Source of the DNA: a virus
Reading direction: 5' to 3' (one strand)
DNA length: 22,630 nucleotides
Virus record (IMG/VR): IMGVR_UViG_3300009154_000301
Location: 1 to 22,630 of that record
Below are positions 9,501-22,630 of the stretch, one piece after another. Both the position numbers and the translations under genes were made by a program. The notes under the pieces were generated by a model that saw only the letters and a program-made list of their open reading frames with translations, had not been told where the DNA came from and did no database searches. The stretch's first letter is position 1; each line of letters begins with the position of its first letter.

Positions 9501-12500
9501 TTATACAGGTCAAATATCATATGAAAACATTCCTAGTTATACTTCTGATACTACAGGTTTTGTATATGATTTAAGAGATAGTTTAGATTTTAGACCAAGA
9601 GTTGCTGATAATTCTACAATAAACAGTTCTACAGTAGATAGAAATTATACAAGTACTGGAGCTTCTTCATTTGATGTTGTAAAATTTAATTCAGATGTAA
9701 GTAACGATATAGAATATTATTTACCTAGAGTTGATAAAATTTTCTTAGATAATTTAGGTAATTTTCAAGTTGTAAAAGGTTCAAGCTCTTTAAATCCACA
9801 ATTACCTAGTGCTATTGACAATGCAATGCAAATTGCTACTGTTTATTTAAATGCTTATACATTAAGTACAACAGATTTGGTTGTAGAAAAAGTTGATAAT
9901 AGAAGATATACGATGAGAGATATTGGCCGTTTAGAAACTAGAATTTCAAACGTAGAATATTACACTCAATTATCTTTATTAGAAACACAAACTCAAAATC
10001 AACAAATACAAGATGCACAAGGATTTGACCGTTATAAAAACGGATTTATAGTTGATAATTTTACAGGTCACGGAGTAGGTGATGTAACAAATTCTGATTA
10101 TCAATGTTCTATGGATATGGCCAATGGTTTATTAAGACCAATGTGTACGGCTAGAAATGTTGGTTTTTTAGAAACAAATACAGACGGTACTGCAACTTCT
10201 AATATAGTTAGAGCAAATAATAATTATCAAAAAACTGGAGATTTAATTACTTTACCTTATACAGAAGTAACTTCAATACAACAACCTTATGCAAGTCACG
10301 ATGAGAGTGTAAATCCATTTAGTATTTTCACTTGGGTTGGTGGTGTAAATCTTGATCCTCCTACTGATGACTGGACAGAAACGAACAGAGTTCCTGATCT
10401 TGTTGTTAATATACAAGGTTCTTATGATACATTAGTTCAAAATTTAGGTAATCCAAATTTACAAAGTGTAGAAATTGATACTGTTTGGAATTCATGGCAA
10501 GATACATGGTATGGTACTCCTACGGAAGCAACAACTACTAATTCAGGCGCATATAGAACTACAAATCAACAAACATCAACAGCTGTTGGTGGAAGATTTA
10601 ATGGACAAACTAGAGGAGCTGGTGGTTGGACTGTTGAAGCGGTTGATACGGTTACTACAACTTCTCAACAAATTAGTCAAACAAGAACAGGTATTAGAAC
10701 AGCAATCGTTCCAAATATTGTTCAAACATCATTAGGAGATAAAGTATTAAGTGTTGCTTTTATTCCTTATATAAGAAGTAAAACTATTAATTTTACAGGA
10801 ACAAGATTAAAACCAAATACAAGAGTTTATCCTTTCTTTGATGGTATTGCAATTAGTTCTTATGTAACTCCAACAGGAGGAATATTAGGTGGTAGTTTAA
10901 TTACAGATGTTAATGGTGCTGTATCTGGTACATTTACAATTCCTAGTCCAATATCAGATTCAAATCCAAGATGGCAAACAGGTAGTAAAGTATTTCGTTT
11001 AACAAGCAATTCAACAAATTCTTTAACAGATGTTAATACATCAGCTGAAGGTGATTATATTGCACAAGGTTTATTAGATACTGTTCAAAATACGGTTATC
11101 TCTACAAGACAAGCTCAAACAGTTAGACAAGATGTTAGTGACACTCAAAATATTGTAAGAACATCTACAAGAACAACACAAAATATTATAGAATGGATTG
11201 ACCCAATTGCACAATCATTCTTAGTAGATGATACTGGTGGAGTATTTGTAACTTCTGTTGATTTATTCTTTAGTTCTAAAGATAATAATATTCCAGTAAC
11301 AGTTCAATTAAGAGAAATGCAAAATGGTTATCCAACAAGAACATCAATACCTTTTGGTGAAGTAGTTAAAAATCCAGCAAATGTAAATGTTAGTGATGAT
11401 GCCACTGTTGCTACAAAATTTACTTTTCCTTCACCAGTTTATTTACAAGAAAAAACAGAATATTGTTTTGCAGTAATATCTAATAGTAATGATTACAGGG
11501 TTTATGTAGGAACAATAGGTGAAAATCAATTGGTTTCTAATAGAAAGATATCTAGTAATCCTTATGCTGGTTCTTTCTTTAAATCACAAAATGGTTCAAC
11601 ATGGACAGCAGACCAAACAACTGATATCATGTTTAATATTAATAAAGCCGAATTTGAAAATACAACAGGTACGGCAACATTTGCTAACAAAGAATTGGCA
11701 TCTACATTATTAAATACAAATCCTATAAGAACAACAAATACCTCAAGTGTTGTAACGGTTTATCACAGAGGTCATGGTATGCACAGTTCAAATGACTATG
11801 TAACTATTTCAGGTATTCCTGCAGGAACATATAATGGTATTGCACATACAGCATTGAATGGAACATTTACAAATTTAACAAACATAACTTTAGATAGTTA
11901 TGATATCACTACAACAGGTACAGCAACTTCAAGTGGTGATGTAGGTGGTTCTGCTGTTTATGCTTCTCAAAATTATATTATGGATACAGCAAACATTAAT
12001 ATACAAAATTTAACTGTATCAGGAACAAATATTTCTTATTCTTTAAAAACTACAAGTGGTAAATCTATAAATGGTTCAGAATCAGAATTTTTATTGTCAG
12101 ACACAGCAAGCAATTTTGCTCCAGGAAATAATATTTACTTTAATAATCCACAAATGATTGCAAGTGCAATTAATCAAACATCAAAAATGAATGGCAGTAA
12201 ATCATTATTCTTAACTTGTAATTTAACAACAACAAATGTGAATGTGTCTCCGGTTATTGATACATCAAGAACAAGTATTGTTGCTGTTCAAAATAGATTA
12301 AATAATCCTACAAATGGAAATACACCAAATTTTATAGATGATATTTCTTCTACAGGAACTTCTACATCAGCTGTTTATGTAACTAAACCAATTACATTAA
12401 CAAATACTTCAACAGCACTTAACATTATTTTAACTTCAAACGTAAGACCAAGTGCAACCGTAAAAGTTTATTATCGTACAACAGATTCTACACAAGTTAA

Positions 12501-12720
12501 AAATATTAATACATTATCTTGGACTCCAGTAAATGGTACAGGTTCAGAAGATGTGACAGTTACTCCTTCTTCAAACTCAGTAACATTTAATGATTATACA
12601 TATTCAGATAGTAATATTACAGGATTTACTGCATTTCAAATTAAAGTGGTATTGAAAGGAACTAATTCTTCTCAACCACCAGTTATATCAGCGTTAAGAG
12701 GAATTGCATTAGCATTATAA
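6586..12720 (+). CDS. Giant DUF4815-type baseplate/tail protein
   Basis: With 2044 residues this is the largest gene in the window. The N-terminus (PYYDDYDPEKKFHRILFRP at 11-29, then QARELTQSQSILQNQIERL) is the hallmark of DUF4815 proteins in marine T4-like phages. Later landmarks are a FRPRVADN-type motif near 1005, an RDIGRLETRISNVEYYTQL segment near 1110 followed by a DNFTGHGVGD stretch, and an IDPIAQSFLVDD motif near 1538 leading into a beta-rich domain. Inserted between them are several Thr/Ser-rich modules: SGEKVTGGTSS near 475, SGETITGATSS near 588, and two modules resembling phage hits to the E1-FCCH profile near 505-560 and 1720-1770. Its place after gp8 matches T4 gp9/gp10, so a peripheral wedge role joining fibres to the baseplate is inferred. 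AAGG lies 4 bases before the ATG. Confidence 0.82.
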   Translation: MPSPTDFNLKPYYDDYDPEKKFHRILFRPSYAVQARELTQSQSILQNQIERLSDHLFDKGAMIIPGDISFDLNYSAVKLTSKSYSSISDYIGKKLTGLTSGVVATCVNAIATTGTDPDTLYVKYTQAGTNNSSTTFTSGETINATAIGGGPTLATAIVNSTAIGSSANINAGVYYINGFQVSVTQQTIILDKYTNTPSYRVGLQIVESFVTPNDDASLNDNAQGSSNVNAPGAHRFKIDLILSKLSLTSTNDQNFVELLRLNNGIRSNQVTSTAYNVLEDTLARRTYDQAGDYTVSDFKIDMRENLLSGNNRGIYADGDATKLAAGISPGKAYVKGYEIQKLATSYVNLDKARDYSTSNNYKTNFNLQNYVNVTNVYGSPDITSVSGEVSPYKDVQLFDTPTNSRGTAKSTVGVTVPQIGRAKSKGFEYNYGSSASGIFSSSGLTTSVFKHYLFDIEMFTHLNILTAQAFTSGEKVTGGTSSAFGYVQSISATKSAAVSSISVASPGVVTLNAHSFLEGQQITLTGGTYSVNSAAVSSPTVYTVKNPSTNTFELWDSTGINSINVTAFSSGPTATHGVVVLNDITGTFISGETITGATSSNTAIIQQDRYGFLGADAKDFTETRQISMSGSPTYTADTSIDSVYGDNYQIYGQLSVANNGGATSATAVQGFGTLFTQELRIGDTITFTTDAGSLITRTIHAIYSDTSLTLNTAVGASDVSTKTTAIRKRPKIQGSNLNTSIFKLPYNRIKTLKTTLNSGLSNTSFYVRRNFTATLSNGSATITAGTNEQFVGLSDSDYTVSVMVANSGSTTAGNVLSLDGNNPQSTPIFTLSGSPVGSALTLNFGTAYSNAKIKILATLSVNVANAKTKTLNTGTQVSISNQSIIQSGIIGLSKADIYQLSNVYMSPNFSTPATTSHTDITSRFTLDNGQRDNYYDIGRLVLNSGELKPTGQLLVVFSYFSHGSGDFFSVDSYTGQISYENIPSYTSDTTGFVYDLRDSLDFRPRVADNSTINSSTVDRNYTSTGASSFDVVKFNSDVSNDIEYYLPRVDKIFLDNLGNFQVVKGSSSLNPQLPSAIDNAMQIATVYLNAYTLSTTDLVVEKVDNRRYTMRDIGRLETRISNVEYYTQLSLLETQTQNQQIQDAQGFDRYKNGFIVDNFTGHGVGDVTNSDYQCSMDMANGLLRPMCTARNVGFLETNTDGTATSNIVRANNNYQKTGDLITLPYTEVTSIQQPYASHDESVNPFSIFTWVGGVNLDPPTDDWTETNRVPDLVVNIQGSYDTLVQNLGNPNLQSVEIDTVWNSWQDTWYGTPTEATTTNSGAYRTTNQQTSTAVGGRFNGQTRGAGGWTVEAVDTVTTTSQQISQTRTGIRTAIVPNIVQTSLGDKVLSVAFIPYIRSKTINFTGTRLKPNTRVYPFFDGIAISSYVTPTGGILGGSLITDVNGAVSGTFTIPSPISDSNPRWQTGSKVFRLTSNSTNSLTDVNTSAEGDYIAQGLLDTVQNTVISTRQAQTVRQDVSDTQNIVRTSTRTTQNIIEWIDPIAQSFLVDDTGGVFVTSVDLFFSSKDNNIPVTVQLREMQNGYPTRTSIPFGEVVKNPANVNVSDDATVATKFTFPSPVYLQEKTEYCFAVISNSNDYRVYVGTIGENQLVSNRKISSNPYAGSFFKSQNGSTWTADQTTDIMFNINKAEFENTTGTATFANKELASTLLNTNPIRTTNTSSVVTVYHRGHGMHSSNDYVTISGIPAGTYNGIAHTALNGTFTNLTNITLDSYDITTTGTATSSGDVGGSAVYASQNYIMDTANINIQNLTVSGTNISYSLKTTSGKSINGSESEFLLSDTASNFAPGNNIYFNNPQMIASAINQTSKMNGSKSLFLTCNLTTTNVNVSPVIDTSRTSIVAVQNRLNNPTNGNTPNFIDDISSTGTSTSAVYVTKPITLTNTSTALNIILTSNVRPSATVKVYYRTTDSTQVKNINTLSWTPVNGTGSEDVTVTPSSNSVTFNDYTYSDSNITGFTAFQIKVVLKGTNSSQPPVISALRGIALAL

Positions 12721-12727
12721 GGAATTT

Positions 12728-12946
12728 ATGAAATTAAAAGTTCAAGGTTATGAATCGTTAATAAGAGACTCTAATTCAAAAGCAATTGTAAATGTTGCTA
12801 CAACTGATTATCAGTTATATATGAACAGAGTAAAAATTAGAGAACAACAAAGTGATGAAATTAGAAATGCTGTTAAAGAAATCAATTGTTTAAAAACAGA
12901 ATTAGAAGAAATTAAATGTTTATTAAAAGAGGTAATTAAAAAATAA
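12728..12946 (+). CDS. Small protein with a C-terminal coiled coil
   Basis: This is a 72-residue protein of unknown function. The N-terminal half (KLKVQGYESLIRDSNSKAI) is a short segment of the kind found in small proteins beside T4-like marine tail genes. The C-terminal half, from about residue 38, is rich in Glu, Lys, Ile and Leu with heptad-like spacing, and two Cys sit near 53 and 63. A parallel coiled coil that helps a fibre or chaperone trimerise is plausible but not shown. The gene starts 7 bases after the DUF4815 stop with AAGGA overlapping that stop, and ends 2 bases before the next gene, so it is co-translated with both. Confidence 0.7.
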   Translation: MKLKVQGYESLIRDSNSKAIVNVATTDYQLYMNRVKIREQQSDEIRNAVKEINCLKTELEEIKCLLKEVIKK

Positions 12947-12948
12947 TC

Positions 12949-13284
12949 ATGTCTATTAGAAGTGTACAATCAACCAATACGTTAGATAATTTTAGAACTA
13001 CCTTTAATAGTTTAGGTACTGATGTAGGTGATGTTTCTACTTTAAGTACAACTGCAAAAACGGTTGTTGGCGCTGTTAATGAATTGGTGAGTAGTTTAGG
13101 CGAAGTAAATTCAATAACTTTAGGTTCTAGTAGTGTTTCTTTAGGTGGTACTTTATCAAGTATAGTTGGATTAACAAACATATCTGGCAGCGGAACAGTT
13201 AATTTTACTACAGATGTACAAGTAAATAGTGTATCTGTAGCTACAAAACCTTTTGCAATTGCATATTCTATAGCATTAGGTTAA
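12949..13284 (+). CDS. Small tail/fibre-associated structural protein
   Basis: The 111-residue product begins with SVQSTNTLDNFRTTFNSLGTD and TTAKTVVGAVNEL. This 'TLxxFRxxFN...TTAKxxxxAxNEL' pattern is common at the start of marine myovirus fibre and structural proteins. The rest is a Ser/Gly/Thr/Val-rich beta-type sequence with no signal peptide or membrane segment. A role as a fibre base or connector is inferred. No strong Shine-Dalgarno is present: GAGG at 12930-12933 is too far from the ATG, so translation probably follows from the upstream gene 2 bases away. It is the last gene before a 121-base gap with two late promoters. Confidence 0.7.
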   Translation: MSIRSVQSTNTLDNFRTTFNSLGTDVGDVSTLSTTAKTVVGAVNELVSSLGEVNSITLGSSSVSLGGTLSSIVGLTNISGSGTVNFTTDVQVNSVSVATKPFAIAYSIALG

Positions 13285-13325
13285 TTAAATAATGAAGTGT
13301 TGATGAAAAGAAGTGTTAAAAATAA

Positions 13326-13333
13326 TATAAATA
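13326..13333 (+). promoter_or_regulatory. Late promoter element (distal) in the 13285-13405 gap
   Basis: An exact TATAAATA lies 72 bases before the ATG at 13406, in non-coding sequence. It is followed by a run of A+T-only inverted repeats and a second TATAAATA at 13364. It may be a second start for the fibre-region transcript or a chance match in A+T-rich DNA. Confidence 0.45.
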
Positions 13334-13363
13334 GGTGTATTATAATATTAGAAACAAAAGTAT

Positions 13364-13371
13364 TATAAATA
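13364..13371 (+). promoter_or_regulatory. Late promoter element (proximal) for the small-protein/fibre group
   Basis: An exact TATAAATA lies 34 bases upstream of the 13406 ATG. An ATTA-repeat stretch (about 13377-13394) and an AGGA Shine-Dalgarno site at 13395-13398 follow. The order promoter, leader, ribosome site, ATG is what a T4-type late transcript would show. It starts a new transcription unit after the DUF4815 group. Confidence 0.65.
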
Positions 13372-13405
13372 TAATAAATTAATTAATTAATTTTAGGAAT
13401 TAAAA

Positions 13406-13777
13406 ATGGCAAGCACATTCAAAAGAGTTGCAAAAGCAAGTGTCACAGCATCTCAAAACGCAGGATCAGCTGATGCAATATACACAGTACCAGCAGGAGC
13501 CAGCTCTACAGCTTTAAACTCAATTATTATTGGTATTTCACTTTGTAATAAAACAAGTTCAGATATAACAGCTGGAGTTTACTTATCAAATTATGACGGT
13601 ACTAACAATGCTTATATAGCAAAAGGTGTTACCGTACCTGCTAATACAACTTTAGAAATTATGCAAGGTAATAAGTTAGTGGTTATGAACTCAGGTTCTG
13701 CAGGAGATGTAATTAGAGTTGAAACTAATACATCAACATCACTTGATGTAGTATTATCAGTTTTAGAAAACGTTTAA
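13406..13777 (+). CDS. Small virion structural protein, beta-rich
   Basis: This 123-residue protein has an alternating Ser/Thr/Val/Ile/Ala composition. Landmarks are TFKRVAKASVTASQN at the start, IYTVPAGASSTALNSIIIGI near 25-45, VTVPANTTLE near 76-85 and a closing VVLSVLEN. The layout resembles the small beta-sandwich proteins often found in marine phage tail clusters, in which a 'TVPAG...' strand precedes a central core. No enzyme motif, signal peptide or membrane segment is seen. It sits behind a late promoter with AGGAATTAAAA directly before the ATG, and the same ribosome-site sequence recurs before the next gene. A decoration or fibre-connector role is inferred only from position and composition. 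Confidence 0.7.
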   Translation: MASTFKRVAKASVTASQNAGSADAIYTVPAGASSTALNSIIIGISLCNKTSSDITAGVYLSNYDGTNNAYIAKGVTVPANTTLEIMQGNKLVVMNSGSAGDVIRVETNTSTSLDVVLSVLENV

Positions 13778-13797
13778 TAATTAGTTAAGGAATTAAA

Positions 13798-14043
13798 ATG
13801 TCGAGATATATACCGGATTTTAAAAAACCAACGCAAGTTAAAATTAGAACATATGCCGGCGATGGATCAACTTCAACCTTTACTGTTAGTGGTTCTTTAA
13901 GCGCAAAAAAAGTATTAGTAAGTTTAAATGGATTGCAACAAATACCTGATACTAATTATCAAATTGTAAATACTACTTTAACTTTTTTAACAGGTGCGCC
14001 TGCCGCAACAGATACAATACAAATAGTAGAACTTCCAATATAA
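13798..14043 (+). CDS. Small fibre-type module protein
   Basis: An 81-residue protein made almost entirely of one recurring phage-fibre module: AGDGSTSTFTVSGS, then KKVLVSLNGLQQIPDTNY, then a TLTFLTGAPAATDTIQIVEL ending. In many phage fibres this GDGSTxxFTV...VLVSLNGxxQ...TLTF..AP..GD.I.I.EL module occurs as a domain. Here it is a free-standing gene. It is preceded by AAGGAA at 13787-13792, 5 bases from the ATG, and ends 10 bases before the next gene. It probably forms a small beta domain that docks on a fibre or baseplate. The partner cannot be read from the sequence. Confidence 0.75.
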   Translation: MSRYIPDFKKPTQVKIRTYAGDGSTSTFTVSGSLSAKKVLVSLNGLQQIPDTNYQIVNTTLTFLTGAPAATDTIQIVELPI

Positions 14044-14053
14044 AATATATTTT

Positions 14054-14545
14054 ATGTTAAATGTTGAAAAAAATGTAATACCTGGTTTTAATCCAGTAGG
14101 AAATAAGAATAATACTGGTAAAATAAATAGTAATGTATCAGGTGAAGATTTAGATAGAGATTTTGAATATGGTGAGTTAGATACTAAAAATGGTGTTTTA
14201 GTTAAAAAAGTAGCCGAAGAAATAATACGTTTAATAAAAGAAAGTCCAAATAAAAATCATTTAGAATTAATAGAGTACATACAAGAAAAATTTAAATTAA
14301 TTGAAATTCCTACAATTGATTTAAAAGATACATTATGGTATAAATTGACTGATGGTGAACATTTAGGTCAAAATATTCAAGGTTTTAAAATAGTTACGGA
14401 TGGTAAAGGAAATAAAAAAAAAATACATCACATAGGATTTTCTTCCGATGTTGATTATCTTGATGGTCTTATAAATAGGATGATACAAAAACTTAAGCAA
14501 TTAGGATATTTTGATATTATAAATAGTAAAGGTAACAACAAATAA
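14054..14545 (+). CDS. Unrecognised 163-residue charged protein
   Basis: Not recognised. Unlike its Thr/Ser-rich neighbours it is rich in Lys, Glu, Asp, Ile and Asn and looks mixed alpha/beta. It has a flexible Asn-rich N-terminus (1-30), a helical stretch KKVAEEIIRLIKESP (51-65), a second helix near 72-85, a KDTLWYKLTDGEHLGQNIQG segment (91-110) and a C-terminal helix LINRMIQKLKQLGYF (139-153). No catalytic motif, signal peptide or membrane span is visible. There is no Shine-Dalgarno within 12 bases of the ATG. Its composition suggests a chaperone or assembly factor rather than a virion part, since such proteins often lie next to the fibre they help fold. That is a guess. Its 3' end contains two late-promoter matches serving the next gene. 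Confidence 0.65.
   Translation: MLNVEKNVIPGFNPVGNKNNTGKINSNVSGEDLDRDFEYGELDTKNGVLVKKVAEEIIRLIKESPNKNHLELIEYIQEKFKLIEIPTIDLKDTLWYKLTDGEHLGQNIQGFKIVTDGKGNKKKIHHIGFSSDVDYLDGLINRMIQKLKQLGYFDIINSKGNNK
14470..14477 (+). promoter_or_regulatory. Late-promoter-like match inside the 163-residue gene
   Basis: An exact TATAAATA overlaps codons for Ile-Asn near the end of the 163-residue gene, 78 bases before the ATG at 14556. Because it is inside coding sequence and another copy lies closer to the gene, this one may be fortuitous. Confidence 0.3.
14518..14525 (+). promoter_or_regulatory. Late promoter for the glycine-rich fibre gene
   Basis: An exact TATAAATA lies 30 bases before the ATG at 14556, within the last codons of the preceding gene. 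The distance to the start codon is like that of the promoters at 13364 and 17530. It would give the fibre gene its own late transcript. Confidence 0.55.
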
Positions 14546-14555
14546 ATTTATTCAA

Positions 14556-17141
14556 ATGGTAAATATTAAAGTTAGAGATCAAAATACAAATTTCGGTTCA
14601 GATACTGATGGGTTAGTTATACCAACAGGTACTACAGGTGAACGTGTTGCGAGCACAGGCGCTATCAGATATAATACTTCTTATGGTTGTTTAGAATATT
14701 ACACAGGTACTACTTGGGTTTTATTAGAAGCTCAACCTACAGTTACATCTATTTCTCCAGATTCTATTACAGTAGATGGTGTTACTACAACTCCTGTTAC
14801 AGTTACAGGTACAAATTTTAACGCAGGTGATACTATTACTCTTACTTCAGATGATGCTTTATCTACTATTACTCCTTCTACAATTAGTTACGTTAATGGC
14901 ACTACTTTATCTTTTACAACAGGTGCTACACAATTAAGTAATTTACAAGGAACAGGAGTTTCAAATTTAACAGCTGTAAAAATTTTAGGTACTGTTGGTA
15001 CATTTAGTTGTGCAACCGCTTCAAATACATTAGCTGTTGATCAATTAATTACATTTACAGGAAATTTAAGCGACTCTTATACAATGAGTAGTATTGCTAC
15101 TACAGGAACTGCAGGTCAATTTTCATGTTCTTCAGCAATTCCAGCTATAACTGCAGGTCAAACAGTTACAATTTCAGGAACTCAAAGCACTACATTATCA
15201 AGCGTTAATATTACAGGTCCAGATACAGGTACTATAACAGGTGTTTCAATTACAGGAACTTCTGGTCAGTTTTCATGTACTTCAACTACTTTAGTAGTTG
15301 GTCAAGCTATTACAATTACTGGTACATTTGGTGGTACAGGAAGTATTTCAGGTTACACAACAGGAACAACATATTATGTAATTGCAACTAATGGTACTCC
15401 TACTGGAGCTACAACATTTACACTATCTACAACAAGAAATGGTACAGGTGTTGCAACAACTACTGGTACTCCTACAGGATTAACTTATACAAAAAACAAT
15501 TTAACAGGAACAATTGCATTTGACCCTACAACAAATAGTTCAGGCCCTACTTTAGCTGTAGGTAATATTGTTATAATTTCTGGTACATTAGGTGGCACAG
15601 GTACTATTACAGGATATTCAGATCCTACAACTTATTATATTATTGCAACTGATGGTTCAAACTATGCACAATTATCAACAACTTCAGGTGGTACGGCAGT
15701 TACAACAACTGTTGGTACTCCTACAGGATTAACTTATACAGCTTCAGGTGGTGGAACTATTTCTGGTTATTCAAATCCAACTACTTATTATGTAATAGGA
15801 ACTCCTACTCAAACATCATTTACTTTATCTGCATCATCAGGTGGTTCTGCAATTACAACTACAAATTATGGTAATGGACAGTTTTTATCTAATATGAGTT
15901 TTAGTTTAGGAGGAGGAACGACAGGAAGTATTTCTGGTTATTCATCTGGTAATATCTATTATATTACAACAACTAACGGTTCAACAACATTTACTTTATC
16001 AGCAACTAAAAGAGGAAGTGCTATTACAACTACAGCAGGTAGTCCTACAGGATGGACAACTTATCAATCTGATTATATACCAGCAAAATCTCCATGGGAC
16101 GTTACAGTAACTTCAGCTGGAGGAAAAACAGCAACTTTATTAAACGCATTAAACACAAATTCAGGCCCTTATTGGATAACTCAAGCAGGAACTGTTACAA
16201 ATAGTTTTAGTGCAAATAGATCATTAAGTTATCAATTGTTAGCGGAAAGCCCTCAATCTTTAACTCTAACATATTCATTAGCATCAGGAAGTTTACCAAC
16301 TGGTGTTACTTTAAGCTCATCAGGTTTATTATCTGGAACAATAACTCCACCAGGAGTTCAAACAACATACAATTTTTCAGTAACTGCTACAGATACAAAT
16401 GGTCTTACTGCAACAAGGTCATTTAGTATTGCTGTATATCTTTCAGCAATTCAAACATTTACCTCAAGCGGAACATTTACAGTTCCTACTGGACTTACCG
16501 CAGTAGATGTATTAGTCGTTGCTGGAGGTGGTGGCGGTTCAGGACAATGTAATATTGGTGGTGGAGGTGGTGCAGGTGGTTTAATTTATAGACCAGGTTA
16601 TCCAATTACACCAGGTACTCCAATAGCTGTTACAGTAGGTCAAGCAGGTTATCCAGGCGGTAATTCAATATTTGGCGGATTAACTGCAATTGGTGGAGGT
16701 CAAGGAGGATTCTTCGCAGCTCCTTATCCAGGCGGTTCAGGCGGCGGTGGTGGTGGTAATGTTTTCCATCAAGGTGGTTTTGGCGGCGGTACTGGTACTC
16801 AACCAAGTCAACCAGGAGATTCAGGTACTTATGGATTTGGTAATCCAGGAGGTCAGGCTGCTTACAACAACGGCCCAGGTGCTGCTGGTGCTGGCGGTGG
16901 TGGTGCTGGTGGTGGTGGAGGTAGTGCTGGTAGTCCTACATCAGGTGGTGGAGGAGGAGCTGGACGAACTTATTCCATTTCAGGAAGTTCTGTAGAATAT
17001 GCTGCAGGAGGCGGAGGTTCTCCTGGAGGTGGTGCTGGTGGCCCAAGCACAAATGCAACAAATAAAGGTGGCGGTGGAGGTGCCGGTGGTACTCCTAACA
17101 CAGGTGGTGGTGGACCAGGTGTTGTTATAGTAAGTTACTAA
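14556..17141 (+). CDS. Multidomain tail fibre with glycine-rich C-terminal adhesin-like region
   Basis: This 861-residue protein is a chain of recognisable parts. Residues 18-57 form a fibre start of the type IPTGTTGER...TGAIRYNT...LEYYTGTTWV. Residues 61-123 resemble an IPT/TIG immunoglobulin-like domain (VTSISPDSITVDG, VTVTGTNFNAGDTI). Residues 145-503 hold repeated modules with FSC...VGQAITITGT, GTTYYVIATNG and TTFTLS...GTPTGLTYT blocks. Residues 555-627 look like a putative Ig (He_PIG-type) domain (SGSLPTGVTLSSSGLLSGT). Residues 631-861 start FTSSGTFTVPTGLTAVDVLVVAGG and become glycine-rich, as in Gly_rich_2-type phage domains. Long glycine runs there suggest a stack of polyglycine-II helices like that of the S16 gp38 adhesin. 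This end is the best candidate receptor-binding tip. No intramolecular chaperone motif was identified. Confidence 0.82.
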   Translation: MVNIKVRDQNTNFGSDTDGLVIPTGTTGERVASTGAIRYNTSYGCLEYYTGTTWVLLEAQPTVTSISPDSITVDGVTTTPVTVTGTNFNAGDTITLTSDDALSTITPSTISYVNGTTLSFTTGATQLSNLQGTGVSNLTAVKILGTVGTFSCATASNTLAVDQLITFTGNLSDSYTMSSIATTGTAGQFSCSSAIPAITAGQTVTISGTQSTTLSSVNITGPDTGTITGVSITGTSGQFSCTSTTLVVGQAITITGTFGGTGSISGYTTGTTYYVIATNGTPTGATTFTLSTTRNGTGVATTTGTPTGLTYTKNNLTGTIAFDPTTNSSGPTLAVGNIVIISGTLGGTGTITGYSDPTTYYIIATDGSNYAQLSTTSGGTAVTTTVGTPTGLTYTASGGGTISGYSNPTTYYVIGTPTQTSFTLSASSGGSAITTTNYGNGQFLSNMSFSLGGGTTGSISGYSSGNIYYITTTNGSTTFTLSATKRGSAITTTAGSPTGWTTYQSDYIPAKSPWDVTVTSAGGKTATLLNALNTNSGPYWITQAGTVTNSFSANRSLSYQLLAESPQSLTLTYSLASGSLPTGVTLSSSGLLSGTITPPGVQTTYNFSVTATDTNGLTATRSFSIAVYLSAIQTFTSSGTFTVPTGLTAVDVLVVAGGGGGSGQCNIGGGGGAGGLIYRPGYPITPGTPIAVTVGQAGYPGGNSIFGGLTAIGGGQGGFFAAPYPGGSGGGGGGNVFHQGGFGGGTGTQPSQPGDSGTYGFGNPGGQAAYNNGPGAAGAGGGGAGGGGGSAGSPTSGGGGGAGRTYSISGSSVEYAAGGGGSPGGGAGGPSTNATNKGGGGGAGGTPNTGGGGPGVVIVSY
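14988..16064 (+). repeat. Repeated fibre modules inside the 861-residue protein
   Basis: Residues 145-503 are built from shuffled copies of three short blocks. Block A (FSC...GQxITITGT type) is at about 148-168, 188-208, 238-256 and, degenerate, 332-343. Block B (SGYxxGTTYYVI type) is at 263-277, 351-364, 402-414 and 459-471. Block C (FTLS...G..ITTT.GTPTG type) is at 288-312, 372-395, 422-436 and 479-500. At DNA level a 28-base stretch is identical at 15464-15491 and 15713-15740, 83 codons apart, which points to recent in-frame duplication. Confidence 0.75.
16446..17138 (+). other. Glycine-rich domain coding segment (residues 631-861)
   Basis: This segment encodes many GGG and GGGGG runs separated by Ala, Ser, Pro, Asn and aromatic residues, beginning right after the Ig-like part. 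The DNA is locally G-rich and GGT/GGA-rich, unlike the A+T-rich surroundings. Variation in such loops changes host range in T4-like phages with gp38-type adhesins. By analogy this is the likely receptor contact, but homology to gp38 has not been tested. Confidence 0.65.
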
Positions 17142-17194
17142 ACAACATATTGTTTCAGTACAATACTAATTTATTTTAAAAAATAAAAAAATGT

Positions 17195-17527
17195 ATGGCC
17201 GATCAAATAGCAAATTTATTTTTAGACGCAGGCGCAACATTTTCATCTGATGTAAATGTTACTGATAACGAAGAAAATCCATTAGATTTAACTGATTGGA
17301 CTGCAAAAGCCAACTTATCAAAAAGTTATTCTCCTACTCAACCTAAAATACCTTTTAATATTGTAAAATATAATGCTGAAGGTATTGTTGCTATTAGTTT
17401 AACTCCTGAACAAACAATTCTTTTAGAAGAAGGTCGTTATGTTTATAATTTGGATATAGTTAACAATATTGACAATTCTGTTATAAGAGTGCTTGAAGGA
17501 ATAATTACTGTTACACCGGCAGTTTAA
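17195..17527 (+). CDS. Small beta-rich tail protein (possible BppU-N-like fold)
   Basis: The 110-residue protein has the order FLDAGATFSSDVNVTDNEENPLDLTDW, a charged middle with a lysine-rich strand, then VAISLTPEQTILLEEGRYVYNLDIV and a closing RVLEGIITVTPAV. This 'D-x-x-G-N-P-x-D-L-T...L-T-P-E-Q-T...G-x-Y-x-Y-x-L-x-I' pattern recurs in small marine phage structural proteins and recalls the N-terminal domain of lactococcal BppU-type baseplate proteins, which anchors receptor-binding parts. That comparison is weak. The ATG at 17191 is out of frame, and the start used is 17195. No Shine-Dalgarno is present, and the upstream 53 bases are A+T-rich with no convincing late promoter. Confidence 0.7.
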   Translation: MADQIANLFLDAGATFSSDVNVTDNEENPLDLTDWTAKANLSKSYSPTQPKIPFNIVKYNAEGIVAISLTPEQTILLEEGRYVYNLDIVNNIDNSVIRVLEGIITVTPAV

Positions 17528-17529
17528 TT

Positions 17530-17537
17530 TATAAATA
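17530..17537 (+). promoter_or_regulatory. Late promoter before the 69-residue gene
   Basis: An exact TATAAATA starts 3 bases after the TAA of the 110-residue gene and ends 21 bases before the ATG at 17559. AAAGGA at 17548-17553 gives a clear ribosome site in the short leader. Confidence 0.65.
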
Positions 17538-17558
17538 ATTAAACAACAAAGGACTTAA

Positions 17559-17768
17559 ATGACACAAGCAAGTTTAACTAAAACACAAGTAAATGTACAA
17601 ATACCATCAAGAACACAGTTAAATAATTCATCATTAAAATTGAGATTGTTGAATGATGTTAATGCGGCGTCTTTACAAAATGGAGATGTAGTTCAATATA
17701 ATTCTACTACAGACCAATTCACGACAGCTCCTGTTAATATAACTAGAGTAAACGGCGGTTCTTTTTAA
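17559..17768 (+). CDS. Small fibre-associated structural protein
   Basis: A 69-residue protein. Its C-terminal half (KLRLLNDVNAASLQNGDVV, then QYNSTTDQFTTAP) is the 'LxDVxxxxLxxGDVLxYNSxTDxF' module commonly seen in phage fibre and tail proteins. The N-terminal half is rich in Thr, Gln and Asn. It has its own late promoter and Shine-Dalgarno site and is the last plus-strand gene before the glycosyltransferase block. Its stop codon TAA (17766-17768) overlaps the stop codon of the converging minus-strand gene, so there is no space for an intergenic terminator. A role in fibre assembly or attachment is inferred. Confidence 0.72.
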   Translation: MTQASLTKTQVNVQIPSRTQLNNSSLKLRLLNDVNAASLQNGDVVQYNSTTDQFTTAPVNITRVNGGSF

Positions 17769-19117
17769 CTTTTTAAATTCTTATTAAAAGAATCTATAGT
17801 TTTTAAATTAAAAGGAAATGCGTTTCCCCATATTGTAGATTTTCTTACCCAACCTAATGCGGCAATAGGACTTGTAATAGCCAAAGGTATATCAGAGTGG
17901 CCGCTATCTTTATTTTCTCTGGAAAAATAATAATTATCTAAGTCGTGTACAACGCCTTTTTCTTTTAATTCATTTAATAACTTTTTTGCTGTTTTATAAG
18001 TAATTGCATAAGCGTGCCCACCATATAGATTTTCTATATCTATAATCTCTTTAGGGCCACCTGCTGTTTGACTATCATATTTACTTGGGTCTGTAAGTTT
18101 ATATCCTAACGAAACTATTTTATTGTGAGGTATTTCTATATTTATTTTATGTAACATAATAGCATCATGTTCAAGTATTATAGCACATTCTTTATTTTTT
18201 ACAATTTTTTTCCATATATTAAAATGACTTGCAGTACAACAAGCACAAGCATCTGTCCAATCGTTCCAAGAATTATAAGATACTTTGTAATCAAAGTTCT
18301 TCCATACTTCTTCTTTAGTTATGTTTTCATAACCTTCAAAACTTTCCCATTCAAGACCAATTGCATCACAAGATTTAGCACAACCTCTTGCATAATCAAT
18401 AGATATAGGATTTTTAGTTGTTAGAATATAGGCTTTTGTTGGTATCATACTTTTAGTATCAGAGTTTTTTTTATTAACAATTTCTGTTTTTTGTTCTATT
18501 ATTTTTTTAATAGGTTGAGGGTTAGAATCTACTATAAATGTCTTTGAACCTGTATGTGAACATTGAATTGTTACGTCTGCATATATTTTAAAACCTTTGG
18601 CTTTTGCTTTACGGCAAAAATCGACATCTTCAGATACTGTATGTTTATGGTCAAGTGCTGAATGATAAACAAATTGAGGATAACCTACATCTTTTAATAC
18701 TTTAGATTTAATAAGAACACAACCCATACCACAAGCGGCTATTTCTAAAAACGTAAGATGTTTAATTTTTTCATAAGGTATATTACTATTACCACCATGA
18801 GCATTTTTTTCATAAATTTCTAATGTATGTTCATGTTCTTTTCTTTGTATATACAAACCAGATACCATATCAACATCATGTTTTAATAATTTTATAAGTG
18901 TATCTTTTGGAAATGCAATATCACTATCTACAGAAAACAAATAATCATAATGAATTGCCCAATGAGATATTAAATTTCTTATTTGGTCAATTTGATAACC
19001 ATAAAAAAATTGAAATTCGGTTTTATATCCTTCAGGAACTTCTAAATCGTATATTGCTTTAAACGTTGTAGGTTCAATATTTTTATTTGTTGGTACAGCA
19101 ATTAATATAGTTTTCAT
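17765..19117 (-). CDS. Bifunctional glycosyltransferase: GT2-like GT-A domain fused to a GT25-like domain
   Basis: This 450-residue protein has two predicted transferase domains. Residues 1-195 look like a GT-A nucleotide-sugar transferase: a start of the type MKTILIAVPTNKNIE, a VDSDIAF segment whose D64-S65-D66 is the metal-binding DxD, and SEDVDFC (162-168), the late acidic motif of GT2-like enzymes. Residues 225-400 resemble family GT25: AYILTTKNP at 229-237, CCTASHFNIWKKIV at 293-306, an ILEHDAIML acidic motif (E316-H317-D318; family consensus EDD) and GGHAYAITYKTAKKLL (366-381). GT25 includes bacterial lipopolysaccharide galactosyltransferases and eukaryotic procollagen galactosyltransferases. 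There is no signal peptide or membrane segment, so it should act in the host cytoplasm. It overlaps the upstream glycosyltransferase gene by 4 bases (ATGA), which implies coupled translation. Donor and acceptor are unknown. Confidence 0.82.
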   Translation of the reverse strand: MKTILIAVPTNKNIEPTTFKAIYDLEVPEGYKTEFQFFYGYQIDQIRNLISHWAIHYDYLFSVDSDIAFPKDTLIKLLKHDVDMVSGLYIQRKEHEHTLEIYEKNAHGGNSNIPYEKIKHLTFLEIAACGMGCVLIKSKVLKDVGYPQFVYHSALDHKHTVSEDVDFCRKAKAKGFKIYADVTIQCSHTGSKTFIVDSNPQPIKKIIEQKTEIVNKKNSDTKSMIPTKAYILTTKNPISIDYARGCAKSCDAIGLEWESFEGYENITKEEVWKNFDYKVSYNSWNDWTDACACCTASHFNIWKKIVKNKECAIILEHDAIMLHKINIEIPHNKIVSLGYKLTDPSKYDSQTAGGPKEIIDIENLYGGHAYAITYKTAKKLLNELKEKGVVHDLDNYYFSRENKDSGHSDIPLAITSPIAALGWVRKSTIWGNAFPFNLKTIDSFNKNLKS

Positions 19118-21141
19118 TGTGCCAATATTTTGTTTGCGTTTTTAGTCTGTTCTTCTGAATTAACTTTGTAATCATTTAATGGACTAATATCATTATAATT
19201 ATAAACAATATCTGATACAACTTTTATTTTACTAGGGTCGGCCTTTTCTATAACAGTATAAAATATAGAACCATCGCCGCCTGCTTTATACCAATTCTCA
19301 TTTTCGTCTTTAAAATTACTATCACTAACACCGTTTAAAAGATAACATTTAAATGTTCTTAAATGTGTATAAGGCATATTCCAATTAAACTTGTGTTGTC
19401 TATATTTTTTTTGTAGTTTGATTTCTTCAGGATAATGTTGAGATACTAAAGGTATATTATCTACCATTGACCAACAAGAACCATAAGTAAACTCTGTTGT
19501 ACCGTCATATAGATTATTATAAAAATGAAATATTTGATTATCGTTTACTAAAGAATCATCACCATCTAAAAGCATTACAATATCATCTCCTTCACAAAAT
19601 TCAACCATTGCTTCTATTTGATTTCTTACTGCTCCTTTATTTTCTGTATTTTTTATTACTTTTACTTTATTACTTTCAAATTGTTTTGCAATTCTATAAC
19701 TGTTGTCTGTAGAACAATCATCTATAACAATCATTAAATAATTATCATAATCTTGTGTGATTACTGATTGAATACATTTTGCAATATATGATTCTGCATT
19801 ATACATTGGAGTTATAATTATCATTCTTTGTTGTGTATTTCTTGGTATATAATTTTCTTCTTGATTGCTAAATTTTCTACCAAATATTGTTTTAATTCTT
19901 GAATTGATATAACTTACTTGTTTATAATCTTCCTTTAATAGATATAAACCTAATTTTTTATAGATATGTTGTTTCCATTGTAATGCAACACTATCCCAAC
20001 CTACAACATCTTTTATAATATTACAAGCATACATTTTTTGTTGATGTAAATAACGGTCTTTGTTTGCTTTTAATACTGTTTCTACAAAACGATCTTCTTG
20101 ATATTTTTTATTGATATGAGGAAATAATCCATTTGGTTCTATAGGGTGGTCTATTAGATAACAAGCTGATTCTATTGCTGTTTCTTCTAATGCACCAAAA
20201 CGATTTGTAATTAAAGGAGTGTTATAAGCAATAGATTCTAAAGTTGAAATGCCAAATGTTTCTGGGAAAACACAAGGGAACAACATGAAACTTGCTTGTG
20301 ACATAATATCAGCAATCTCAGATTGTTTTATGATACCAGTAAACTCTACATCTAATTTTTTATATTTTTCATCTGCAATTAATTTTCTGTATTTTATTTC
20401 TTGTATATCAGGTTCATTGTTTTTAAACTTATAAAATCCACCAATAACTTTTAATTTAGCTTGTGGTATTTCTTTTTTAATTCTTTCCCATATATTTTCT
20501 ACTAAAGGAACCATACCTTTAGATAAGGCCGCATTAAAAACACATAAGAAAGGGTCTTTTGCTTTTATATCTATGTCATCTTTATATTTTACAATACCAT
20601 TACGAGTCATAAAAACATGTTTTTTTATTACTTCAAACATTCTTTTATTACCATGAGCACAATTGGTAACATAAGAAGTATGAAAATCGGAAAGAGTAAA
20701 TATTTCATCTAAGTCTTTATGAATTAACATATCTTCTAATAGATGATCTCCGTACATAGAAAATGTATCGTGCATCCACATTGCTTTTAATTTAGCAAAT
20801 TTTTTTATTGAAGCGTATCGTTTTGGTTTGAATCTTGTAAATTGGCCGTATAATTGTTCTGGTAAAAATGGTATAACTGTTCTTGATGAAATAACAACAT
20901 CAAATTTAAAATCGTGTGGAAAATCTAATCTTGTATGGTCAAAATATTTAACATTATCAAAAGTGCCTTCATTTGAATTTGTATCAATACAGTTGTTAAA
21001 AACAGTAACATCAAAGTTCTTTTTAGCAAGTTCTCTAGCTAATAAAATAACTGCGGATTCTGAACCTCCTAAACCTCTTTTGTTAAGAGTATCACCATCA
21101 TAAGACAGTCCAATAATGTCAATAATTGCAATAGATATCAT
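19114..21141 (-). CDS. Bifunctional glycosyltransferase: GT4-type GT-B domain fused to a GT2 domain
   Basis: The 675-residue product joins two transferases. Residues 1-400 are GT4-like. GLGGSESAVILLAREL (23-38) is the glycine-rich acceptor-side loop, VFNAALSKGMVPLVE lies near 201-215, and FPETFGISTLESIAYNTPLI (292-311) contains the nucleotide-sugar E-x7-E type motif. Residues 438-660 are GT2-like. IITPMYNAE is at 442-450, DDCSTDNS at 474-481, a KNTENKGAVRNQ segment follows, and LDGDDSLV (525-532) supplies the DxD metal site. Both domains keep their core motifs and look active. It is the first gene of a two-gene minus-strand operon behind the palindromic promoter at 21171-21182. No Shine-Dalgarno is visible before the ATG (TTTTTTTAA). 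The likely role is transfer of successive sugars to a glycan or protein late in infection. The target is not known. Confidence 0.85.
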   Translation of the reverse strand: MISIAIIDIIGLSYDGDTLNKRGLGGSESAVILLARELAKKNFDVTVFNNCIDTNSNEGTFDNVKYFDHTRLDFPHDFKFDVVISSRTVIPFLPEQLYGQFTRFKPKRYASIKKFAKLKAMWMHDTFSMYGDHLLEDMLIHKDLDEIFTLSDFHTSYVTNCAHGNKRMFEVIKKHVFMTRNGIVKYKDDIDIKAKDPFLCVFNAALSKGMVPLVENIWERIKKEIPQAKLKVIGGFYKFKNNEPDIQEIKYRKLIADEKYKKLDVEFTGIIKQSEIADIMSQASFMLFPCVFPETFGISTLESIAYNTPLITNRFGALEETAIESACYLIDHPIEPNGLFPHINKKYQEDRFVETVLKANKDRYLHQQKMYACNIIKDVVGWDSVALQWKQHIYKKLGLYLLKEDYKQVSYINSRIKTIFGRKFSNQEENYIPRNTQQRMIIITPMYNAESYIAKCIQSVITQDYDNYLMIVIDDCSTDNSYRIAKQFESNKVKVIKNTENKGAVRNQIEAMVEFCEGDDIVMLLDGDDSLVNDNQIFHFYNNLYDGTTEFTYGSCWSMVDNIPLVSQHYPEEIKLQKKYRQHKFNWNMPYTHLRTFKCYLLNGVSDSNFKDENENWYKAGGDGSIFYTVIEKADPSKIKVVSDIVYNYNDISPLNDYKVNSEEQTKNANKILAQ

Positions 21142-21170
21142 TTAAAAAAACATTTATATAAAGTTATAAT

Positions 21171-21182
21171 TATTTATAAATA
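21171..21182. promoter_or_regulatory. Palindromic divergent late promoter
   Basis: TATTTATAAATA is a perfect 12-base palindrome. It contains TATAAATA on the plus strand (21175-21182, facing the collagen-like fibre gene) and on the minus strand (21178 back to 21171, facing the glycosyltransferase operon). It lies in the only divergent gap of the window (21142-21242), 29 bases from the minus-strand ATG and 60 bases from the plus-strand ATG. If both are used, only one polymerase could occupy the site at a time. Confidence 0.65.
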
Positions 21183-21191
21183 TACTATAAC

Positions 21192-21209
21192 ACAATATAC
21201 CAGTATTGT
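21192..21209 (+). other. Hairpin at the predicted 5' end of the collagen-fibre mRNA
   Basis: ACAATA (21192-21197) and TATTGT (21204-21209) are inverted copies with a 6-base loop. The predicted transcript start is about 21188, so this would be a hairpin at the 5' terminus. It could protect the mRNA or be an operator half-site, but the stem is short and A+T-rich. Confidence 0.3.
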
Positions 21210-21242
21210 CAATAACTTATAGAATTTAACATTTAGAGAGAA

Positions 21243-22630
21243 ATGTCAGATACCATTATAATAATAAAGAATAGTAACGTTCCAGGTAAAGTACCTCAAA
21301 CTACAGATTTACAACCAGGAGAATTGGCTGCAAATACCTACGATGGTAAACTCTATTTATTACGAGATACAACAAGTACTGGTGGTACACAACAAGTAGT
21401 TCAAGTAGGTGGAACTGGTAATGGTTATACAGGTTCAGTAGGATATTCCGGTTCAAAAGGTATTGATGGTTACACAGGCTCAAAAGGTATTGATGGTTAT
21501 ACAGGTTCAAAAGGTACTGATGGTTATACAGGTTCTATAGGATATACAGGAAGTTCTGGTGACAAATATGTTACATCTTCATCAACATCTTTTACTTTAG
21601 GAAATTCAGGAACACAAACAATAACAGTTGGAACAGGATTAAGTTATACAATAGGCCAAGATATAGTTATTGCATTTGACATTTCAAATATTCAATATGC
21701 TACGGTTACTTCTTATACTTCAGGAACAGGTTCTTTAACATTTACAAAAAATAGTTTTGTAGGTTCAGGTAGTCATAATACATGGACAATTAATTTAGAT
21801 GGAGCTGCAGGCACTCAAGGTTATACTGGTTCTGCTGGAACAGCTGGAACAGGTTACAATGGTTCTGTTGGATTTACAGGTTCTGTCGGTATAGGATATA
21901 CAGGTTCAAAAGGTTATACTGGTTCACAAGGTTATAATGGTTCACAAGGTTATACTGGTTCTGCTGGAATAGGTTACAATGGCTCTGTTGGATATTCCGG
22001 TTCTATTGGTTATTCTGGTTCACAAGGTTTACAAGGTTATTTCGGTTCTTCTGGATATACAGGTTCAGCCGGTCAAGATGGTTATGATGGTTACACAGGT
22101 TCGGCCGGTGCAGGTTATACAGGTTCAAAAGGAGATACTGGTCAAGGATTTAATATCGCTAAGATATATTCTTCTGTTGCTGCCTTAAACGCTGATACTA
22201 ATCCAACAGGAATTAATATAGGTGAATTTGCTATTATCAATACAAATGATACATCAAATCCTGATGATGGAAAATTATATCTATGGAACGGTACTAGTTA
22301 TAGTTTTATTGTTGACCTTTCAGGTACAACAGGTTATACAGGTTCTGCCGGTATAGGATATGTTGGTTCACAAGGATATGCCGGCTCAGTAGGATATTCC
22401 GGTTCAAAAGGTATTGATGGTTACACAGGCTCAAAAGGTATTGATGGTTATTCAGGTTCACAAGGAAATTTAGGATATACAGGATCATCAGGCACTGGTT
22501 ACACAGGATCAGCAGGAGCTGGTTATACAGGTTCAACAGGATTTACAGGTTCACAAGGTATTGTAGGATTTACAGGATCAGGAGCAGATAGTCCTTTAGT
22601 TTTTACAACATCGGGAATTTATAGAACACT
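21243..22630 (+). CDS. Collagen-like tail fibre (3' truncated by the window)
   Basis: The frame is open from ATG 21243 to the window end: 462 codons plus 2 bases, no stop. The N-terminus (VPGKVPQTTDLQPGELAAN, then DGKLYLL) is a common phage-fibre attachment module. Three collagen-like Gly-X-Y blocks follow at about 61-107, 187-302 and 360-447, dominated by Gly-Tyr-Thr-Gly-Ser-x units. Between them lie non-collagenous beta-type modules at 108-186 and 303-359; the second contains GEFAIINTND and DGKLYLWNG, echoing the N-terminal module. No Pro occurs within the triplet blocks. The protein should trimerise into a thin rod used as a fibre or whisker for host contact. GAGAG at 21236-21240 is a fair ribosome site 2 bases from the ATG. 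The gene is read divergently from the glycosyltransferases and shares the palindromic promoter. Confidence 0.85.
   Translation, partial: MSDTIIIIKNSNVPGKVPQTTDLQPGELAANTYDGKLYLLRDTTSTGGTQQVVQVGGTGNGYTGSVGYSGSKGIDGYTGSKGIDGYTGSKGTDGYTGSIGYTGSSGDKYVTSSSTSFTLGNSGTQTITVGTGLSYTIGQDIVIAFDISNIQYATVTSYTSGTGSLTFTKNSFVGSGSHNTWTINLDGAAGTQGYTGSAGTAGTGYNGSVGFTGSVGIGYTGSKGYTGSQGYNGSQGYTGSAGIGYNGSVGYSGSIGYSGSQGLQGYFGSSGYTGSAGQDGYDGYTGSAGAGYTGSKGDTGQGFNIAKIYSSVAALNADTNPTGINIGEFAIINTNDTSNPDDGKLYLWNGTSYSFIVDLSGTTGYTGSAGIGYVGSQGYAGSVGYSGSKGIDGYTGSKGIDGYSGSQGNLGYTGSSGTGYTGSAGAGYTGSTGFTGSQGIVGFTGSGADSPLVFTTSGIYRT
21435..21500 (+). repeat. 66-base perfect direct repeat, copy 1
   Basis: This stretch is identical to 22386-22451 (offset 951 bases, 317 codons). 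It encodes residues 65-86 in the first collagen-like block. The identity extends over silent positions (for example TAC-ACA-GGC-TCA), so it reflects recent duplication or gene conversion rather than protein-level constraint. Confidence 0.9.
22386..22451 (+). repeat. 66-base perfect direct repeat, copy 2
   Basis: Second copy of the repeat at 21435-21500, encoding residues 382-403 in the third collagen-like block. Recombination between the copies would remove 951 bases in frame, including both non-collagenous modules and the central block. Confidence 0.9.

Follow-up and report, generated by a model that had tools for sequence, protein, structure and literature searches.

What do glycosyltransferases (GTs) act on when their genes stand antisense among the tail fiber genes of a phage? 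Marine and freshwater phage genomes often carry GTs, whose role is usually taken to be the modification of LPS or DNA. The question was raised by IMGVR_UViG_3300009154_000301, a T4-like virus of aquatic bacteria, of which a stretch of 22,630 nt (the window) was analyzed. As the first-pass annotation had described, it contained two fused genes on the minus strand, gene A (19114 to 21141; 675 aa, GT4 + GT2) and gene B (17765 to 19117; 450 aa, GT2-like [GT2'] + GT25), which overlapped by 4 bp (ATGA), and every other substantial gene of the window was on the plus strand. The pair was flanked by small fiber genes on one side and by a collagen-like tail fiber gene, the proposed acceptor (21243 to 22628, plus strand, 3' end cut at the contig end), on the other. 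The convergent neighbor of this cassette, retained in most loci, encoded a 110-aa fiber-associated protein (17195 to 17527, plus strand; phrog_3304/1084, 'L-shaped tail fiber protein assembly'), and the stop of a 69-aa ORF (17559 to 17768, plus strand) overlapped the end of gene B. A VrlC-like baseplate protein gene (6586 to 12720, plus strand; phrog_358) marks the window as part of the host-recognition island described for pelagimyophages (PMC7029224), and identification of the homologous site in HTVC008M supported this assignment.

The domain composition of gene A was established by Pfam, AlphaFold, fold comparison, and alignment of relatives, and that of gene B by Pfam and PHROG. In A, the GT4 part (about 19942 to 21141, minus strand) matched Glycos_transf_1 (PF00534) at residues 190 to 333 (E 1.8e-11, 44.3 bits, curated cut-off 26.4), and the GT2 part (about 19192 to 19833, minus strand) matched Glycos_transf_2 (PF00535) at residues 442 to 592 (E 8.7e-24, 84.8 bits, curated cut-off 23.3). 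The AlphaFold model of A had a pLDDT of 88.9 and a pTM of 0.90; its GT4 part resembled MshA 3c4q (Z 29.7, rmsd 2.9, 336 aligned). In B, the C-terminal GT25 domain (about 17768 to 18442, minus strand) matched Glyco_transf_25 (PF01755) at residues 248 to 389 (28.7 bits, curated cut-off 24); this half of the structure model was of low confidence. The N-terminal GT-A domain GT2' (about 18530 to 19117, minus strand) was a weaker, GT2/GT21-like case: it matched phrog_1574 (E 5.5e-25) but stayed below the Pfam cut-offs (PF00535, 17.0 bits against 23.3; PF13506, 18.6 bits against 21.7). In relative L004, the PF13506 score was 22.3 bits. Its fold resembled the LH3 accessory domain (Z 17.2) and STIV A197 (Z 16.8); since the GT-A fold was supported and the family profile cut-off was not reached, the B N-terminus is called GT2-like. 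The four domain calls of the first-pass annotation stood, that of the B N-terminus being the weaker one. Matches of the B C-terminus to PPR and FolD in PDB sequence searches were judged to be chance or repeat effects, and a Pfam match to THF_DHG_CYH was dismissed as below its own cut-off.

Catalytic motifs were kept in relatives, and the loss of catalytic sites that had been named beforehand as speaking against the pathway was not seen: E294-x7-E302, DGDD 526-529, and AGGD 620-623 of A were invariant among 24 relatives, D64-x-D66 of B was nearly invariant and E163-D164 invariant in its relatives, and E316-H317-D318 of B was invariant among six GT25 relatives. The residues looked for were E-x7-E in GT4, DXD and an acidic base in GT2, and an acidic cluster in GT25. 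As judged from sequence, all four domains retain catalytic-type residues and look intact, and A (dN/dS about 0.15-0.2) and B are under purifying selection.

The cassette recurred in about 75 environmental phage loci, in which GT4-GT2-GT2' was the conserved core and the end module was exchangeable: (i) FkbM methyltransferase, (ii) another methyltransferase (Methyltransf_24), (iii) FkbM plus GT25, or (iv) GT25 alone. A methyltransferase was the usual end module, and the GT25 domain was absent from most relatives of B. Local BLAST of the window against L003 disclosed a junction in gene B (18456 to 18485, minus strand) at which 30 bp stood where L003 has 627 bp (net -597 bp, in frame) and the FkbM domain of close relatives was gone. 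A GT25-only end was found outside the window on just one contig, 99% identical, and that of the window is a derived variant. The idea of a pathway was supported, but the conserved unit consisted of three core GTs and an end module that can be exchanged, usually a methyltransferase, and not of four GTs; we infer the four steps and the attachment of the glycan to the fiber. The arrangement beside a fiber proved to be conserved when related phages were surveyed, as had been proposed: among 22 non-redundant clusters, a motif-rich fiber gene (see below) was divergently adjacent to the cassette in 17, and a fiber-assembly-like gene lay on the opposite side in 14. Homologs were usually beside fibers and not consistently away from them. 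Cyanophages also had the B N-domain by itself, close to gp25 or at other sites, with no other part of the cassette. In cultured phages Mosig, Melnitz, HTVC008M, and DSL-LC02, the cassette was absent from the homologous site; no relative of A in cultured phages exceeded about 40% identity even across short stretches, none spanned most of A, and GT4-GT2 was absent from 38/38 comparison records. A bacterial origin was looked for by a genome scan with two short patterns, which returned a single MAG contig that was itself a phage fragment, carrying the fiber-A-B-110 aa order and the same palindrome (see below) as the window.

The 462 aa of the window fiber (3' end cut) contained the motif G-[Y/F]-x-G-S 31 times. 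Position 5 of G-[Y/F]-x-G-x was Ser in 1623/1636 cases (99%), and each of the six Ser codons was used (234 AGY and 1389 TCN). In 119 control collagens (12,330 triplets), six motifs of this kind were present. This invariance could be structural (collagen packing) instead of enzymatic. In the reverse test, viral records were chosen solely by a GYTGS collagen DNA pattern (counted at >=25 kb) or by a GDTGP collagen pattern; among the matches listed, A was present in 32/43 GYTGS-chosen records and in 1/50 GDTGP-chosen ones, the latter record also having a motif-rich ORF (Fisher p about 2e-14 among the matches listed, with sampled records that were not phylogenetically independent). The remaining 11 of the 43 records listed had no visible cassette, and many of these were fragments; conversely, four cassette-bearing clusters had no motif fiber in the sampled records. 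Cassette and motif fiber co-occurred also where the cassette was located elsewhere in the genome, and in some carriers they were far apart (38 kb or more).

Gene A and the fiber gene were divergent and had in common one predicted palindromic T4-type late promoter, TATTTATAAATA (21171 to 21182, both strands), in which TATAAATA was present on the minus strand at 21178-21171 toward A and on the plus strand at 21175-21182 toward the fiber. The T4-type consensus has TATAAATA at -13 to -6 before late genes (PMC1524935), and the site in the A/fiber gap agreed with it in sequence and position and was conserved among relatives. The window had ten TATAAATA matches, each no more than about 90 bp ahead of a correctly oriented gene start; since this raw count did not exceed chance (6.4 expected), the call is convincing by position and conservation only. 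The palindrome was present in the A/fiber gap of 45/68 loci and in 0/18 other divergent gaps. Across A-bearing loci (875 kb), it occurred 47 times, always in the A/fiber gap, the one case without gap assignment (L041) being just upstream of A. A sigma70-type site with a TG extension (TTGACA-17-TATAGT; 21184 to 21212, minus strand) overlapped the late promoter in the A direction only. It scored 11/12, the best among 39 sites in 12700-22630; because the scan as a whole gave fewer sites than shuffled sequence (39 vs 55.5), the evidence was restricted to this single site, which was conserved in relatives (<=1 mismatch in 36/69 loci, at a fixed offset from the palindrome where present). A has a strong predicted sigma70-type promoter besides the late one. 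The link to late expression drawn in the first-pass annotation held for the bidirectional TATAAATA site, but expression need not be purely late.

Since cassette and motif fiber co-occur across many phages, the enzymes probably sugar-coat the fiber. We give a probability of roughly 70% that the phage encodes, with A and B, a soluble glycosylation module by which a short glycan is assembled directly on the collagen-like tail fiber of the phage itself; most likely, the cassette O-glycosylates these fibers, probably on G-[Y/F]-x-G-S, with a swappable cap. One core GT domain would start the chain on a motif hydroxyl, the other two would extend it, and the last domain would finish it: most relatives would O-methylate the chain, and GT25 would add a further sugar in the window. 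Ser is the invariant candidate for the acceptor hydroxyl, Thr is possible, and Tyr is unlikely because Phe freely replaces it in the motif. From the shared late promoter, enzyme and fiber would be made together while virions assemble; from the sigma70-type promoter, the enzyme would already be present beforehand. The glycan may make the fiber stiffer, shield it, or tune its binding.

The first-pass annotation had put host surface polysaccharide on a par with the fiber as the target, and enzymes modifying the LPS O-chain or capsule during infection, e.g., to exclude other phages, would accord with the published reading of GTs in the same island (PMC7029224), with the LPS and capsule enzymes among the GT4, GT2, and GT25 families (WaaG, chondroitin synthase, and WrtF were among the fold matches), and with a sigma70-type promoter toward A suiting early action on the host. 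It would remain unexplained, however, why the cassette co-occurs specifically with one collagen motif, why it has a bidirectional late promoter in common with the fiber, and why it is absent from other collagen-fiber phages; polymerase, flippase, and lipid-carrier genes were not seen beside the cassette in the window. We regard this target as unlikely, and the fiber, which had been one of two options, is now clearly preferred because cassette and motif-rich fiber co-occur across many contigs, adjacent or not.

That co-occurrence might itself be without function, cassette and fiber merely traveling as neighbors in a mobile host-recognition island, which is known to be hypervariable and cassette-like (PMC7029224); the records are also related by descent. 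This account is less probable still. Against it stand the persistence of the pairing at distances of at least 38 kb, the conservation of the linked promoter, purifying selection, and the near absence of the motif from the 119 control collagens. Decoration of hypermodified bases in the phage genome is very improbable: phage GTs often act on DNA (PMC12619734) and an early-type promoter is present, but this reading would not account for the late promoter, fiber linkage, and collagen motif and would have no need of a glycan chain with modular methyl caps, and the window showed no base-hypermodification gene.

For fiber glycosylation, a wider form is advanced tentatively, at somewhat short of even odds: a phage-specific O-glycosylation with its own sequon G-[Y/F]-x-G-S (glycan on Ser) would coat the fibers of many uncultured aquatic phages, some of >300 kb, swaps of the end module between relatives (methyl cap, other methyl cap, or extra sugar) would serve to vary the coat, and the palindromic bidirectional late promoter would lock expression to the fiber in T4-like carriers. 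One widespread GT set is thereby given a specific, testable substrate and a motif for virion proteome searches. If true, the tail fibers of many aquatic phages would be self-made glycoproteins whose cap can be exchanged, with consequences for fiber stability, avoidance of unwanted binding, and host choice, and an enzyme array for glycosylating collagen-like proteins would be available.

Among known systems, the GTs of the pelagimyophage island are found at the corresponding site in related phages, likewise downstream of VrlC. PMC7029224 describes them as assorted, mostly GT8, and assigns them to LPS, and its accessible text describes neither this conserved antisense cassette nor the fiber link. 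Mycobacteriophages carry glycans on virion proteins (capsid and tail tube; cited in PMC12619734), which are other targets, and the accessible text of that paper does not describe a collagen fiber or a methyl-cap array. STIV A197 resembled the B N-domain (Z 16.8, 175 aligned, rmsd 4.5) with a weak sequence match (E 0.017), but it is a single-domain GT-A protein of a Sulfolobus (archaeal) virus. The best Foldseek match of B was COLGALT1 9evj (E 1.6e-14), which has a GT-A domain and then GT25, in the same order as B; the rmsd across both domains was about 20, with the weak GT25 half of the model included. COLGALT family membership, prompted by the fold matches, is not claimed, as the sequence profile of the B GT25 domain did not find COLGALT1, and the likeness may be a convergent fusion since GT25 is absent from most relatives of B. 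Mimivirus L230 glycosylates viral collagen (PMC9614988, PMC7826918); COLGALT1/LH3 and L230 differ from the cassette in acting on hydroxylysine, and a lysyl hydroxylase was not noticed in the window.

Clostridioides difficile SgtA puts an O-linked sugar on Thr (and Ser) of BclA3 Gly-X-Y repeats (PMC7157674). As in this system and that of Bacillus BclA, where a GT gene adjoins a collagen-like surface protein gene, the cassette adjoined a collagen-like protein with Ser-bearing G-[Y/F]-x-G-S repeats; SgtA/BclA3 differs in its bacterial spore protein, GPT repeats, and single GT, in place of a multi-domain array. Chlorovirus PBCV-1 A064R and A111/114R are soluble virus proteins in which two or three GT domains follow one another, and A064R ends in an O-methyltransferase capping the glycan carried by the capsid protein of the virus itself (PMC7826918, PMC9614988). 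The chlorovirus system differs in its algal host, its N-linked glycan on a capsid protein, and its other GT families. To our knowledge, its GT and acceptor genes have no promoter in common. The window cassette had no chlorovirus-type capping methyltransferase and, this having been lost, is not classed with that type, while most relatives have a GT core ending in a methyltransferase (FkbM or Methyltransf_24), and by analogy the cassette family would work like the chlorovirus type.

The 22.6-kb uncultured-virus contig represented the part of a T4-like phage genome that encodes the baseplate and fibres: homologues of gp25, gp6 and gp8, a VrlC-like 2044-aa protein (phrog_358), and then small and large fibre genes were all located on the plus strand. 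The minus-strand pair noticed in the first-pass annotation was confirmed there, namely A (19114-21141; GT4 plus GT2) and B (17765-19117; GT2-like plus GT25), whose ORFs overlapped by 4 bp. The GT4 and GT2 domains of A (675 aa) and the C-terminal GT25 domain of B exceeded curated Pfam cut-offs; the GT2-like N-terminus of B (GT2') fell under the cut-off and was assigned by a phrog_1574 match and a GT-A fold. The structure model of A was good (pLDDT 88.9), and that of B was well modelled mainly in residues 1-190, with a weak GT25 part. Loss of catalytic sites, raised earlier as an argument against function, was not seen in any of the four domains: (i) GT4 E-x7-E (294, 302) and GT2 DGDD and AGGD of A were invariant in an alignment of 24 sequences; (ii) in B, DxD 64-66 was nearly invariant and E163-D164 invariant among relatives, and GT25 EHD 316-318 was invariant in six sequences. 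Compared to its relatives, A displayed dN/dS of about 0.15-0.2 (dN 0.10-0.22, dS 0.64-1.3), and nothing in the motifs or these ratios suggests decay of A or B.

The first-pass annotation had described a four-glycosyltransferase set; all four domains were present in the window, while the unit conserved across loci was a GT4-GT2-GT2' core with a variable end. This core was encoded by two ORFs or one fused ORF (865-1389 aa), and its ends were GT2'-FkbM (23 loci), GT2'-Methyltransf_24 (23 loci), a fused core with FkbM (9 loci), a core with separate FkbM (3 loci), GT2'-FkbM-GT25 (5 loci), and GT2'-GT25 (only the window and its relative L002); thus, the core is conserved and the end exchanged. Compared to the 88% identical locus L003, the window had 30 bp in place of 627 bp, so that 199 codons, those of the FkbM domain included, were lost in frame, and its cassette is a methyl-less, GT25-ended variant. 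In record L379, a fused GT4-GT2-GT2'-FkbM array was followed by an independent ORF of 170 aa that gave a GT25-like match, and hence GT25 may be gained as its own gene. Four records of very large phages (L369, L371, L373, and L374; 52-328 kb) carried a doubled GT4 in a single 1361-1595-aa ORF (GT4-GT4-GT2-GT2', some with FkbM).

An IMG/VR pattern scan detected A in at least 75 loci and B, by its own patterns, in at least nine, and neighbouring genes were then compared, most records being fragments. GT2' adjoined A or was fused to it nearly everywhere. The usual order was a collagen-like fibre gene (21243-22628 in the window, plus strand) divergent from A and then B, running into a convergent 110-aa fibre-associated gene (17195-17527, plus strand; phrog_3304), with outer neighbours varying from locus to locus. 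The placement beside fibre genes recurred in relatives: a divergent motif-rich fibre lay next to A in 17 of 22 non-redundant clusters (90% identity), and the 110-aa gene on the opposite side in 14 of 22. The cassette was not found at the homologous site of cultured phages Mosig, Melnitz, HTVC008M, and DSL-LC02, where the 110-aa gene was followed, in most cases after a small gene, by a fibre gene in the same direction, a cassette-free version of the site. A bacterial source was considered, but the one bacterial MAG contig with A, found in a scan with two short patterns, was itself a piece of phage DNA with this gene order. An 861-aa fibre-like protein (14556-17141) with a long glycine-rich C-terminal domain (PF21722) represented a second fibre-tip kind adjoining the cassette.

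The cassette-neighbour fibres bore G-[Y/F]-x-G-S repeats. Ser was last in 1623 of 1636 G-[Y/F]-x-G-x stretches (34 proteins) regardless of x, which was T in 1276 and otherwise Q, S, V, D, A, or N; Tyr and Phe interchanged (883/754). All six Ser codons were used (234 AGY and 1389 TCN), and thus the residue itself is being maintained, beyond mere copying of the repeat. Control collagen-like ORFs picked by another repeat had six motifs in 12,330 triplets, and the motif was almost absent from cassette-free comparison loci, except L116. When a DNA pattern encoding three consecutive GYTG(S) units was the sole criterion for choosing viral records, A was present, among the matches listed, in 32 of 43 records of at least 25 kb (counted from tables), versus 1 of 50 such records picked by GDTGP collagen (Fisher p ~2e-14, the records being related to one another); the single exception, L377, also had a motif-rich ORF nearby. 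Among 38 comparison records, from related T4-like or cultured phages, GT4-GT2 was found in none and a lone GT2' in six. Mere joint travel of cassette and fibre in one island is weakened by carriers in which the two were unlinked: the picked motif gene lay 38-51 kb from A in several, and further in a 230-kb record, so that positional linkage alone does not explain the pairing. Where A did not adjoin the fibre, the motif was found elsewhere in three of six records tested.

The A/fibre gap contained TATTTATAAATA (21171-21182), a palindrome matching the T4-type late promoter consensus (PMC1524935) in both directions. The late-promoter link proposed for the cassette thereby took the form of a predicted bidirectional promoter common to A and the fibre, recurring in this gap in 45 of 68 loci. 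All 47 palindrome copies in 875 kb of A-bearing sequence sat at the A/fibre site (in L041 directly before A, where the contig ends), and none of the 18 other divergent gaps there had it; after de-duplication it occupied 9 of 17 gaps, the rest having late promoters otherwise placed or none recognised. A sigma70-type TTGACA-17-TATAGT with TG extension pointed toward A only, and 36 of 69 loci had it with one mismatch or none. Consensus and conservation therefore predict only a late-type promoter for the fibre, and early- plus late-type promoters for the enzymes. Since the two late sites overlap and simultaneous occupancy is unlikely, the shared palindrome may also balance the amounts of enzymes and fibre. 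The remaining TATAAATA sites of the window (169-176, 5090-5103, 13326-13371, 14470-14525, and 17530-17537) each lay a short way upstream of a plus-strand structural gene, consistent with a T4-type late programme. Action on host polysaccharide, the reading published for glycosyltransferases of the same island (PMC7029224), agrees with the sigma70-type promoter; neither the motif nor the co-occurrence nor the late promoter common to A and the fibre would be expected from it, and DNA modification accounts for even less.

Direct cytoplasmic O-glycosylation of the fibre is the simplest reading: one core domain would transfer the first sugar onto the motif Ser (or Thr), two chain extensions would follow, and a cap would be added last. 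The top Foldseek match of B was human COLGALT1, and its N-domain was about equally alike to the LH3 accessory domain and STIV A197; because the GT25 model is weak, the COLGALT1 likeness is a lead rather than family membership. In cyanophages S-SCSM2R (near a 2OG-Fe(II) oxygenase) and S-T4, stand-alone phrog_1574 relatives of this N-domain preceded gp25 by a few genes. In the archaeal Methanobacteriales virus vir323, a phrog_1574 GT gene preceded that of a collagen-like tail protein by two genes, possibly an independent GT-collagen pairing. By analogy, precedents exist for each part of the proposed fibre glycosylation: SgtA, which transfers GlcNAc onto Thr/Ser of BclA3, a collagen-like protein encoded by the adjacent gene (PMC7157674); A064R, a single polypeptide extending and methylating the chlorovirus capsid glycan (PMC7826918, PMC9614988); and mimivirus L230, which glucosylates viral collagen.
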